From contig NZ_JAMBLS010000029.1 of the NCBI RefSeq assembly GCF_023336905.1, positions 1-36,211 of the forward strand: a DNA stretch of 36,211 nt, written 5' to 3'. The stretch comes from Bacteroides sp. ET71. Lineage in GTDB: Bacteria; Bacteroidota; Bacteroidia; Bacteroidales; Bacteroidaceae. The notes under the pieces are model-generated. The model made no database searches. It worked only from the letters and a program-made list of their open reading frames with translations, and was not told where the DNA came from. Made by a program: the position numbers and the translations under genes. This document shows positions 10,693-25,268 of the stretch, piece by piece. Numbering within the stretch: the stretch's first letter is position 1; each line of letters opens with the position of its first letter.

Positions 10693-10802
10693 ACTTAGCA
10701 CAAGTATCGGTAACACTTAGCACAAGTGTCAGTAATACTTAGCACAAGTGTCAGTGACACTTAGCACAGGTGTCGGCGACACTTAGCACAGGTGTCAGCC
10801 AC
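10693..10802. repeat. Tandem array, five 22-bp units with internal dyads
   Basis: Units begin at 10693, 10715, 10737, 10759 and 10781, each 22 bp, each with the form ACTTAGCACA then R-GTGTC and a GAC-type end. Neighbouring units create dyads across their junctions: GTGTC-AGT-GACAC between units 3 and 4, and GTGTC-GGC-GACAC between 4 and 5. Both stay symmetric although the centre bases differ. The array lies 80 bp past the asparaginase terminator, in a 630-bp gap before glgB. No coding use is supported. Confidence 0.85.
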
Positions 10803-21577: not shown

Positions 21578-21601
21578 GTGTCCTTTTCGCGGGAGGGGTG
21601 C

Positions 21602-21631
21602 TTGGGAGAACGAGGATATTGCGTATCTTTG
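21602..21631 (+). promoter_or_regulatory. Bacteroidetes promoter (TTG-N19-TATCTTTG) for the M23 gene
   Basis: A -33 TTG (21602-21604) and a -7 TATCTTTG (21624-21631) are 19 bp apart. The promoter lies inside the longest possible reading frame (from 21598), so the real start codon must be downstream (21664 or 21655). Confidence 0.75.
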
Positions 21632-21663
21632 CCGGGACGATTTATTTCTATCTGATGCAACGT

Positions 21664-23325
21664 ATGTCAATGAACAAGTTATTACGGGGATGCCAGTTGG
21701 GCGTCGTGCTGCTGGCCGTGTTCGTGGCGAGGGGGCAGGAGAGGGGCTTTGTGCCTCCGTTCGATTTTCCCATCACCTTCAGTGGTAATTTCGGGGAGAT
21801 ACGGGCCAACCACTTCCACGGGGGGCTGGATTTTAAGACGGGCGGCGTGACGGGCAAGCGGGTGCGGGCGCTGGCCGATGGTTATGTGTCGCGCATCCGG
21901 GTGACGCACGGGTCGGGTTATGTGCTGCATGTGACGTATGACAATGGTTATACGACCATCAATCGGCACCTCAGCGCTTTTGTGGGCGACATTGCCCGCA
22001 GGGTGGAGGAGCGGCAGTATGCCGAGGAGAGCTGGGAGGTGGACATCACGCCCGAGCCGGGCGAGTATCCCGTGCGGGCGGGGCAAGTGATAGCTCTGAG
22101 TGGGAACACGGGTTATTCGTTCGGCCCGCACCTGCATCTGGATGTGATGGAGGACGAGACGGGCGACAGTGTGGACCCTCTGCCTCTGTTCCGGCCGTAT
22201 GTGAAGGACCACACGGCGCCTCGCGCGCTGGGCATCATGCTCTTTCCCCGGCCGGGCAAGGGGGTGGTGAACGGGCGGCAGGAGCCGCAGGCGTTTTCGC
22301 TCCAGGCATCGAAGACGGTGGAGGCTTGGGGACAGGTGGGCGCGGCCATCCGGGCGTATGACTACATGGAGGGGGCGGCCAACCGCTACGGCGTGCACAC
22401 GGTGGTGCTCGAGGTGGACAGCCAGGAGGTGTTCCGCAGTGTGGTCGACCGCTTCAGTCCGGAGGAGAACCGGTATATCAATACGTGGACATACGGGCAG
22501 TATATGAAGTCGTTCATCGACCCGGGCAACCGCCTGCGCATGTTGCACGATGGCAACGGGCAGCGGGGCTGGGTGACGATTGACGAGGAAAGGCCCTACC
22601 GCTTCCGCTATACGCTGAGCGATGCGCTGGGCAACACGTCGCACGTGTCGTTCACCGTCGTGGGGCGGCGGATGGAGGTACGTCCGGTGGAGCACCGGGA
22701 GAAGTACACGCTGCATTGGGACCGGGTGAACGTCTTGCAAGAGCCCGGCCTGCAGGTGGTCATCCCCCGCGGGCGGCTGTACGATGACGTGCGGTTGGAC
22801 TATGGCGTGCGGGCCGACAGCGGCGACGTGGCCTGGACTTATCGGCTGAACCCGCGGGCCGTCCCCCTGCACCGTGCCTGTGGGCTGAGCATCGCCCTGC
22901 GCCGTCGTCCGGTGGAGGATTCGACGAAGTACTACGTGGCGGGCGTGACCGCGCGGGGTAAGAAATACTACGTGGGCGGACGCTACGAGGACGGATGGAT
23001 GAAGGCCGACGTGCGCGAACTGGGCACGTACACCGTGGCCGTCGACACTGTGCCGCCCGCGCTGACGCCTGTCAACCCCAAAGCCTGGAAGCGCACGGGG
23101 CGCATCGTGCTGAAAGTGAGCGACCGGGGGGCAGGCCTCCGTTCGTATCGCGGCACCATCGACGGGCAGTATGCCCTGTTCGGCCGGCCCAATTCCGTGC
23201 TGGGCGACCTCGTCTGTCGTCTCGACCCCCGGCACGTGCGGCGGGGCGGGCGGCATGTGTTGCAGATGACCGTAGAAGACCGGTGCGGCAACCGCACCAC
23301 AGAGCTGTTCGAGTTCACATGGTGA
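21664..23325 (+). CDS. Secreted M23-family metallopeptidase (LytM domain)
   Basis: A peptidoglycan endopeptidase candidate, 553 aa from ATG 21664. This start gives a signal sequence (MSMNKLLRGCQLGVVLLAVF) and lies after the promoter. The LytM domain (about 30-175) has zinc ligands H52 and D56 in HFHGGLDF, and H156/H158 in GPHLHLD, so the active site looks intact. The remaining 370 residues form beta-rich modules with Ig-like features (YRFRYTLSDALGNTSHVSF, IVLKVSDRGAGLRSYRGTID), a common layout in Bacteroidales M23 proteins. The gene is strongly GC-rich compared with rprXY. Ten bp after its stop the 24-bp hairpin array begins. Confidence 0.92.
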   Translation: MSMNKLLRGCQLGVVLLAVFVARGQERGFVPPFDFPITFSGNFGEIRANHFHGGLDFKTGGVTGKRVRALADGYVSRIRVTHGSGYVLHVTYDNGYTTINRHLSAFVGDIARRVEERQYAEESWEVDITPEPGEYPVRAGQVIALSGNTGYSFGPHLHLDVMEDETGDSVDPLPLFRPYVKDHTAPRALGIMLFPRPGKGVVNGRQEPQAFSLQASKTVEAWGQVGAAIRAYDYMEGAANRYGVHTVVLEVDSQEVFRSVVDRFSPEENRYINTWTYGQYMKSFIDPGNRLRMLHDGNGQRGWVTIDEERPYRFRYTLSDALGNTSHVSFTVVGRRMEVRPVEHREKYTLHWDRVNVLQEPGLQVVIPRGRLYDDVRLDYGVRADSGDVAWTYRLNPRAVPLHRACGLSIALRRRPVEDSTKYYVAGVTARGKKYYVGGRYEDGWMKADVRELGTYTVAVDTVPPALTPVNPKAWKRTGRIVLKVSDRGAGLRSYRGTIDGQYALFGRPNSVLGDLVCRLDPRHVRRGGRHVLQMTVEDRCGNRTTELFEFTW

Positions 23326-23334
23326 GGCGCGAAA

Positions 23335-23600
23335 ATCTGACATATCCGTTAGCGCATACTCTAACACCCCCGTTAGAGCATAACCTAACACCCCTGTTAG
23401 AGCATAACCTAACATACCCGTTAGATTTCTCTCTTCCCCACCCGGGGAAAGCATACGTTCCCCACCCCCCGAACGCATACGTTCACCACCCCATGAACGC
23501 ATTAGTTCAGTACCCCATGAACGCATTAGTTCAGTACCCCATGAACGCATTAGTTCAGTACCTCATGAACGCATAAGTTCAGTACCCCATGAACAATCAC
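23335..23600. repeat. Array of 11 hairpin-forming units, 24-bp period
   Basis: Units begin at 23335, 23359, 23383, 23407 (26 bp), 23433, 23457, 23481, 23505, 23529, 23553 and 23577. Most units are a 5' arm, a C-rich loop (ACCCC core), a complementary 3' arm and a GCATA-type linker. The stems change along the array while staying paired: CTGAC/GTTAG (with a G-T pair), CTCTAAC/GTTAGAG, CTAAC/GTTAG twice, TTCCCC/GGGGAA, GTTC/GAAC, then GTTCA/TGAAC five times. Loop and linker are far more constant than the stems. The units at 23505 and 23529 are identical. The array exactly fills the gap between the M23 stop and the C69 peptidase leader. Both strands lack stops through most of it only because 24 is a multiple of three. 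Confidence 0.9.
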
Positions 23601-23621
23601 TTACTAATACATATTTATATT

Positions 23622-25268
23622 ATGAACATCAAACGACTGATTCTATCCATCCTGTTGCCGGCGGCCATGGCCTCTTACGCCCCCGCCTGCACCAACCTGA
23701 TTGTGGGCAAGAACGCTTCGACGGACGGCTCCACCATCGTGTCTTATTCGGCCGACTCCTACGGGTTGTTCGGCGAGTTATACCACTATCCCGCCGGGGT
23801 CTATCCGAAGGGGACGATGATTGACATCCACGAGTGGGACACAGGCAAGTACCTGGGCCAGATTGAACAGGCCCGCCAGACGTACAGCGTCATCGGCAAC
23901 ATGAACGAATTTCAACTGACCATCGGCGAGACCACCTTCGGCGGACGCCCCGAGCTGGTTGACACGCTGGGCATCATTGACTACGGCAGCCTCATCTACC
24001 TCACCCTCCAGCGCTCGCGCAACGCCCGCGAGGCCATCAAGGTCATGACCGAGCTGGTGCAGGAATATGGCTATTACAGCAGCGGTGAGTCCTTCACCAT
24101 CGCCGATCCCAACGAAGTGTGGATTATGGAGATGATAGGCAAAGGTCCCGGCGTGCGCGGAGCCGTCTGGGTGGCCGTGCGCGTGCCCGACGACTGCATC
24201 GCCGCCCATGCCAACCACAGCCGCATCCACCAGTTCCCCCTCGACGACAAGGACAACTGCCTCTACTCGCCCGACGTCATCTCCTTCGCCCGCGAACGAG
24301 GCTATTTCGACGGCGTCAACAGCGACTTCAGCTTCTCCGACGCCTACGCACCCTTGGGCTTTGGCGAACTGCGCTACTGCGAGGCTCGTGTCTGGAGCTA
24401 CTACAACCTCTTCACCGACCGCGGACAAGAGTTCCTGCCCTACATCCAGGGTAAAGACACCACTCCCATGCCCCTCTACCTCAAGCCCAACCGCAAACTC
24501 TCTGTCCAAGACATCAAGAACGCCATGCGCGACCATTACGAAGGAACTCCCCTCGACATCAGCCAGGACTTCGGCGCCGGCCCCTACCACGCACCCTACC
24601 GCCTCTCGCCCCTCGACTTCGAGGTCGACGGCCAGAAGTACTTCAACGAACGCCCCATCTCCACCCAGCAGACCGGCTTCGTCTTCGTCGCCCAGATGCG
24701 TGCCAACCTACCCGACGCCGTTGGCGGAGTACTCTGGTTCGGCACTGACGACGCCAACATGACCGTCTTCACCCCTGTCTACTGCTGCACCGACCGCGTG
24801 CCCCAATGCTACACCCGTGTTGACGGCGCCGACTACATCACCTTCTCCTGGCGCTCCGCCTTCTGGATATTCAACTGGGTCTCCAACATGGTTTACCCCC
24901 GCTACGACCTCCTCATCGGCGACCTCCGTGCCACCCAGACCGAGCTTGAGACAGCCTTCAACCAAGCCCAGCCCGGCATCGAGTCCGCCGCCCTTCAGCT
25001 CTGGCAGACCGACCCTGACCAGGCCAAGGCCCTGCTGACCAACTACACCAACATGACTGCCCAAAGCACCTTCGACACCTGGAAGCAACTCGGACAATAC
25101 CTCGTGGTGAAATACGCCGACGGCGTCATTCGCCGCACCAACCCCGACGGAACCTTCCAGCGCAACTCCATCGGTCAGCCCGCCGGCGTCATCCGCCCCG
25201 GCTACCCCGAAGACTTCCTGCGCGAATACATCAAACAGACTGGCGACCGATATAAAATGCCCGAATAG
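23622..25268 (+). CDS. C69-family dipeptidase (Ntn hydrolase), secreted
   Basis: A peptidase of family C69 (PepD type), 548 aa from ATG 23622. This start (MNIKRLILSILLPAAMASYA) is preferred because it begins a signal peptide; the frame-start at 23589 lies in the last repeat unit. C23, at APA-CTNLIVGKNAS, would become the N-terminal nucleophile after cleavage, as the Ntn mechanism requires. Further family motifs are SYSADSYG, MNEFQLTIGETTFGGR, ADPNEVWIMEMIG and AANHSRI-like AHANHSRIHQFPLDD. The codon use is extremely C-ending. A textbook promoter for the next genes overlaps its stop codon. Confidence 0.92.
   Translation: MNIKRLILSILLPAAMASYAPACTNLIVGKNASTDGSTIVSYSADSYGLFGELYHYPAGVYPKGTMIDIHEWDTGKYLGQIEQARQTYSVIGNMNEFQLTIGETTFGGRPELVDTLGIIDYGSLIYLTLQRSRNAREAIKVMTELVQEYGYYSSGESFTIADPNEVWIMEMIGKGPGVRGAVWVAVRVPDDCIAAHANHSRIHQFPLDDKDNCLYSPDVISFARERGYFDGVNSDFSFSDAYAPLGFGELRYCEARVWSYYNLFTDRGQEFLPYIQGKDTTPMPLYLKPNRKLSVQDIKNAMRDHYEGTPLDISQDFGAGPYHAPYRLSPLDFEVDGQKYFNERPISTQQTGFVFVAQMRANLPDAVGGVLWFGTDDANMTVFTPVYCCTDRVPQCYTRVDGADYITFSWRSAFWIFNWVSNMVYPRYDLLIGDLRATQTELETAFNQAQPGIESAALQLWQTDPDQAKALLTNYTNMTAQSTFDTWKQLGQYLVVKYADGVIRRTNPDGTFQRNSIGQPAGVIRPGYPEDFLREYIKQTGDRYKMPE

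Follow-up and report, generated by a model that had tools for sequence, protein, structure and literature searches.

Tandem 24-nt hairpin arrays in Bacteroides change both stem arms together and may be shaped by template switching

Eleven tandem hairpin units lie between two peptidase genes of a gut Bacteroides (Bacteroides sp. ET71), and the array is best explained as one copy of a dispersed 24-nt hairpin family found in a small group of Bacteroides species. In this family the two arms of a stem were found to change together, both within and between species. The reading that we prefer, at a probability of a little under one half, is that the hairpins are homogenised by template switching during replication, amplified by slippage and dispersed to other sites. 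The window referred to throughout is the whole stretch of 36,211 nucleotides that was analysed.

Structure of the array

The array was located at 23335-23599 of the window. Each unit follows the same plan, namely an arm, a C-rich loop, the reverse-complement arm and a short linker, and the units recur at a 24-nt step, one of them measuring 25 nt. The features of this region are listed below.

21598..23325, + strand: M23-family peptidase gene, upstream of the array (Pfam)
23335..23430, + strand: units 1-4, stem type A, CTAAC/GTTAG
23431..23455, + strand: unit 5 (25 nt), TTCCCC/GGGGAA
23446..23469, + strand: 24-nt stretch across the unit 5/6 junction, identical to part of an array in an AcrB-family gene of the sister genome (L171:8171-8194)
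23456..23599, + strand: units 6-11, stem type C, CGTTCA/TGAACG and later AGTTCA/TGAACG (GTTCA/TGAAC)
23622..25268, + strand: C69-family peptidase gene, downstream of the array (Pfam)

The original prediction of a 266-bp array of eleven 24-nt hairpin units was confirmed in its coordinates, unit count and paired arms. When positions were numbered from the base after GCATA, the arms paired according to i+j=21 (1-20 to 6-15). Most units had an ACCCC core in the loop, which spanned approximately positions 7-14, and positions 21-24 were usually CATA. The loops of units 1-4 were ATATCC, ACCCCC, ACCCCT and ATACCC, and the linker in these units was GCATA, with TTTCT after unit 4. The loop core of units 6-11 was ACCCC (ACCTC in unit 10). 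The arms had been described as always complementary, which held for most of the inner pairs but not for the outer pairs 1-20 and 2-19, which were frequently mismatched. Further departures were a G-T pair in unit 1 (CTGAC/GTTAG), a C-C mismatch in the stem of unit 6, and unit 5, which pairs as TTCCCC/GGGGAA only with a one-base register shift. The description of the stems as unrelated was not upheld: all of them sit in one common 24-nt frame, and T4-A17 was kept in all 20 aligned 24-nt units of the window and its sister species, a count that omits the two 25-nt units.

Both neighbours were assigned by Pfam to peptidase families (M23 and C69), as predicted. Judged from the N-terminus, the C69 gene likely starts at 23622 rather than at the first ATG (23589). 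The array starts 9 nt past the M23 stop (23325) and ends 22 nt short of that likely start, and therefore occupies nearly the whole gap rather than filling it entirely as first claimed. No intrinsic terminator (stem plus T run) was present in 23200-23750, a scan for sigma-70 types gave no promoter pattern in the gap, and Rfam 15 gave no match above the gathering score within the window. A plasmid search with the flanks returned four records covering at most 52% of the query, the best three lying under the peptidase genes (one without annotation). A CRISPR array was rejected, as the loop and linker are largely conserved and there are no unrelated spacers.

Folding z-scores against dinucleotide shuffles were -8.7 for the + strand and -4.9 for the - strand. 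That both strands fold better than shuffles, and that the array lies between two genes of the same strand, would suit an alternative in which the hairpin, as RNA or single-stranded DNA, is maintained by selection (for example through mRNA stability or a loop-binding protein), with only compensated changes surviving. We regard such selection on structure as possible rather than probable.

Paired change of the stem arms

Relatives were fetched through the C69 gene and, with this gene as the bait, the presence of an array did not steer their choice; the comparisons rest on one genome per species. Eleven units were again found in the corresponding M23-C69 gap of the sister species, Candidatus Bacteroides merdipullorum (L097; L003 is the same locus), which is 93.4% identical to the window over a 13.9-kb alignment. 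Stem types A and C were common to the two. The middle block of the sister array consisted of three CTGTCC/GGACAG units, an additional stem type, one of which (L097:6662-6686, CTGTCCC/GGGACAG) has 25 nt and matches unit 5 of the window in length and place. In G141, where C69 is 90% identical, the C69 gap held a short degenerate array.

An upstream ORF was called at 78 of 80 C69 loci. The gap was at most 60 nt in 45 of these 78, and a mechanical call found hairpin chains of at least three only in L038 and L099, having missed the known L097 array, probably because that array reads open. This distribution counts against selection on structure. The C69 gaps of L038, L040 and L103 contained 22-nt tandem repeats, and that of L027 a different repeat.

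Pairing was measured in two alignments. In A2 (16 two-unit rows from the window and the sister, adjacent rows sharing units and rows with 25-nt units omitted), 86.1% of cells were paired, compared with 62.0% when shuffled and at most 33.3% when slid by 1-3 columns. In A5 (21 rows from five sites in three genomes), the corresponding values were 87.1%, 67.1% and at most 40.5%. Covariation, proposed originally as a test on the unit alignment, was 0.536 vs 0.150 in A2 and 0.452 vs 0.114 in A5. The structure was read from the aligned sequences themselves, which favours the real pairing over the slid versions, and paired units are favoured among those A5 rows that a model found; the sister rows at the M23-C69 gap are free of the latter bias. 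The predicted paired replacement of arms was thus borne out by a sister locus that had not been chosen for it and by both alignment counts.

Core pairs 3-6 were Watson-Crick in 150 of 164 cells, the remainder being 2 G-T, 1 A-C and 11 other. This count covers 41 of 47 hand-listed distinct units, the list omitting the two 25-nt units, the third L251 unit, the AAGTT-type G141 units and the first partial G062 unit at site S2, loop-inverted units, site S5 and further L171 units. The core mismatches show no G-U bias, a point against selection on structure. Units with only one arm changed were also observed, with CTCAC opposite GTTAG in G141 (L251) and CTTCA opposite TGAAC in G141 at site S2. Such one-arm states would equally fit stepwise compensation under selection.

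Other sites of the family

Searches with two models gave matches in 6 of 149 genus genomes (R1, E<=0.01) and in 9 of 158 genomes (R2). Inspection supported family arrays in G000, G062 (the sister genome) and G141 and, more distantly, in G065. Matches in G047, G086 and G151 contained no such array on inspection; those in G016, G055, G076 and G126 proved to be repeats of another kind or only distantly similar ones, and are left out of the family sites. The G016 repeat (L277, G016:C42:15362) comprises approximately six 23-nt units with the stem TGCACA/TGTGCA and does not belong to the family. At L276 (G126:C1:4896280-4896327), CTAACA-CACC-TGTTAG units coincide with an apparent change of reading frame in a coding region.

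Besides the window gap, family sites were S2, S3, S4, S7 and S8, together with S5, which has a shorter loop. G000 gave 13 model matches at 5 places at E<=0.01 (four inspected, plus G000:C38:11671). At L160:11280-11720 (G000:C9, approximately 36.3-36.7 kb), family units in both orientations surround another, AT-rich repeat, and an inverted repeat encloses all of these.

Across the sites, the stems CTAAC, CTGTCC, GTTCA, CTCAC, CTACA, TTCC, GTTGC and CTTAA were each found opposite their own complement in at least one unit. The stem at S2 differed by species, being GTTGC in G000, GTTCA in G062 and CTACA in G141, where the last unit was a CTTCA/TGAAC hybrid. The stems at S3 and S4 were nearly unchanged between the sister species, which counts against the template-switch reading. 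In G062, an array of approximately four units was found in frame within the ORF of an AcrB-family transporter; the gene has about one unit in G000 and none in G141 or G049, so that copy number differs between genomes. The array inside an ORF counts against selection on structure, and the preservation of the C-rich loop across sites speaks for it.

Ordinary tandem duplication was also considered, each stem type having entered once as a paired founder palindrome and then multiplied. Units within a block are nearly identical, as this would predict, and the type C stem was found at both S1 and S2, which indicates that stems can be imported whole. This explanation moves the question to the founders, as seven stem variants (CTAAC, CTGTCC, GTTCA, CTCAC, CTACA, TTCC and CTTAA) share one pairing frame and one loop type. 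The units having one arm of each type also tell against it. Founder duplication was accordingly judged unlikely.

Spacer inversion and template switching

The spacers between identical 4-nt arms were compared within arrays. In 6 of 35 arrays a spacer occurred as its exact reverse complement with the stem kept, compared with 2 of 35 for the reverse and 0 of 35 for the complement; the scan took spacers of 4-7 nt, the numbers are small, and two of the six arrays are one site in two species. Examples were ATACCC/GGGTAT (S4, two species), the linker GCATG/CATGC (G065, L176) and CAGTT/AACTG (Bacteroides sp. 519, L091). An ACCCCC/GGGGGT inversion at S3 in both sister species lay beyond the scan margin. 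Loops that occur inverted argue against selection on structure.

According to one report (PMC8604942), a switch of template between short inverted repeats makes their arms alike and inverts the spacer; another (PMC8794818) describes template switching as able to generate and preserve hairpins and to flip their loops. In the arrays described here, slippage or unequal exchange would produce the tandem copies. A nascent strand that switches template across a hairpin during replication would use one arm as the template for the other, so that a mutation in one arm would either be carried into both or be erased. A switch could also flip the loop or the linker while keeping the stem. Stems would in this way drift in pairs with no need for a conserved RNA function, and units would also spread to other places, in one case landing in frame within a gene.

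The paired-change pattern is explained by this template-switch reading no less well than by a conserved RNA. Parts of the reading are inferred, namely that template switching is the cause and slippage the amplifier, which way the changes ran, and that a dedicated function is lacking. The arms in these arrays are mostly 4-8 bp, below those in yeast coding genes, for which the available text of PMC8604942 reports spacer inversions only with arms >9 bp.

A wider class of tandem arrays

In 2.07 Mb of the genus and near relatives, TRF reported 40 intergenic arrays with a period of 20-24, compared with none at 15-19, none at 25-29, 16 at 9-14 and 4 at 30-70. This count required at least 2.9 copies and set aside arrays inside ORFs >450 nt, three of which had a period of 20-24; the 40 arrays are not independent, as some are common to close relatives. 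Other families, classes and phylum members of Bacteroidota gave one array of period 20-24 in 0.63 Mb. The rate varied: unselected stretches of G000 yielded 7 arrays in 280 kb, genomes of other genus members 4 in 380 kb and the C69 flanks 29 in 1.41 Mb. A stem of at least 5 was present in 22 of the 40, compared with 4.6 expected from shuffled units. Hairpin chains that were also tandem numbered 18 in 1.86 Mb, including some stretches fetched for their family matches. Some of the shuffles destroy tandem order by construction, making their low or zero counts a weak control, and the shuffled-unit control is the better one. One further array, at L150:1093-1407 (G000:C1), has thirteen 24-nt copies with the stem CCACA/TGTGG in a divergent gap.

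The window itself holds a second array.

10693..10798, + strand: second tandem hairpin array, approximately five 22-nt units, GACACTT-AGCAC-AAGTGTC, of a dispersed family

Matches to this 22-nt family numbered six in G000 and, counting one that covers flank only, five in G062, with C/T and G/A variants in the arms. Among 35 units, G-T mismatch cells outnumbered A-C (17 vs 8), an excess that weakly favours an RNA structure, the distinct states being few and orthologous loci being included.

Hairpin arrays of this wider class showed no clear orientation preference: 13 of 22 were in codirectional gaps, 4 in divergent and 2 in convergent gaps and 3 at contig ends, against a background of 146 codirectional, 54 divergent and 44 convergent gaps. 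Their occurrence in all three kinds of gap, approximately as in the background, is a point against selection on structure. Compensated double changes accounted for 3.1% of the event types (2 of 64) in 22 other hairpin arrays of period 20-24 and were no more frequent than in four slid controls, where they accounted for 2.9% (8 of 279). One-sided changes that break or weaken a pair made up 49 of 64 (26 other, 12 A-C and 11 G-T), and the near equality of G-T and A-C gave no strand asymmetry of the kind that selection on structure would leave. Arm homogenisation was therefore not seen in these 22 arrays; the event scan favours uniform arrays, since those in which the stem switches are split up by TRF.

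These results bear on each explanation differently. The original prediction had offered either selection on structure or a mechanism that copies both arms together. The copying option gains from the exact inversions, the non-G-U core mismatches, the array inside an ORF and the lack of a clear orientation preference, but it is not proven, since both arms change together in the 24-nt family and not in the 22 other arrays. Strong covariation confined to one family is what a family-specific function would give, and mostly uncompensated changes elsewhere would also agree with founder duplication. With no excess of compensation in the 22 arrays, and with arms shorter than those published, selection on structure stays a serious rival to template switching.

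A broader and rather doubtful proposal is that Bacteroides has a clade-specific process which generates tandem hairpin arrays, with a step of approximately two helical turns (20-24 nt), in many intergenic gaps unrelated to one another, homogenising the arms and inverting the loops in some of them. If so, template switching would leave a natural record in the arrays. It is usual to regard paired stem changes as proving a functional RNA; in a family that also has inverted loops and one array inside a gene, replication alone may give that signal. The arrays would then serve as a natural assay of template switching in a gut bacterium, and they would call for care when RNAs are discovered by covariation.

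Comparison with known repeats

Rickettsia palindromic elements are palindromic inserts kept in frame in coding genes, and are longer, single inserts. The present family differs in having 24-nt tandem units, with only one array found in an ORF. REP/BIME elements and REPINs, in the available text of PMC3733652, are short intergenic palindromes that are both dispersed and clustered, some of them in coding regions. The array family resembles these and the associated RAYT systems in consisting of short dispersed palindromes, once in a coding gene, and an identical 24-mer was found at two loci in two genomes; both observations would be expected of a mobile palindrome of the REP/BIME type, whether its mover were a transposase or some other dedicated enzyme. 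A search for the Y1 transposase (PF01797) gave no match in G000, a 99.58% complete genome, and was positive in 5 of 14 named control genomes. REP elements usually exceed 100 per genome (available text of PMC2817692), whereas the present family has few sites per genome. Its head-to-tail step of 20-24 nt and its variation of the stem by site are also unlike REP/RAYT. A mobile palindrome was on these grounds considered very improbable.

The closest likeness is to quasipalindrome template-switch mutation, in which arms are corrected to each other and loops inverted; the cases described in the available text of PMC8604942 and PMC8794818 are single hairpins in yeast genes and RNA genes, unlike the tandem arrays at several sites found here. 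The arrays are best read as short palindromic repeats whose behaviour comes closest to that of a template-switch hotspot, a quasipalindrome repeated in tandem. Searches of an open-access collection turned up no description of arrays of this kind, PMC4679880, PMC3733652 and PMC6749651 being among the papers compared, in agreement with the claim that they fit no named repeat class. The TAACTGA heptamer repeats are likewise intergenic tandem repeats and also occur in some Bacteroidetes; according to the available text of PMC4679880, they have a 7-nt unit of one fixed sequence, six copies of which are predicted to form one pair and no stem-loop.

Elsewhere in the window, at 2082-2172, two 7-nt tandem repeats, AATGGTT and ATTAACC, face each other and are mutual reverse complements up to rotation.
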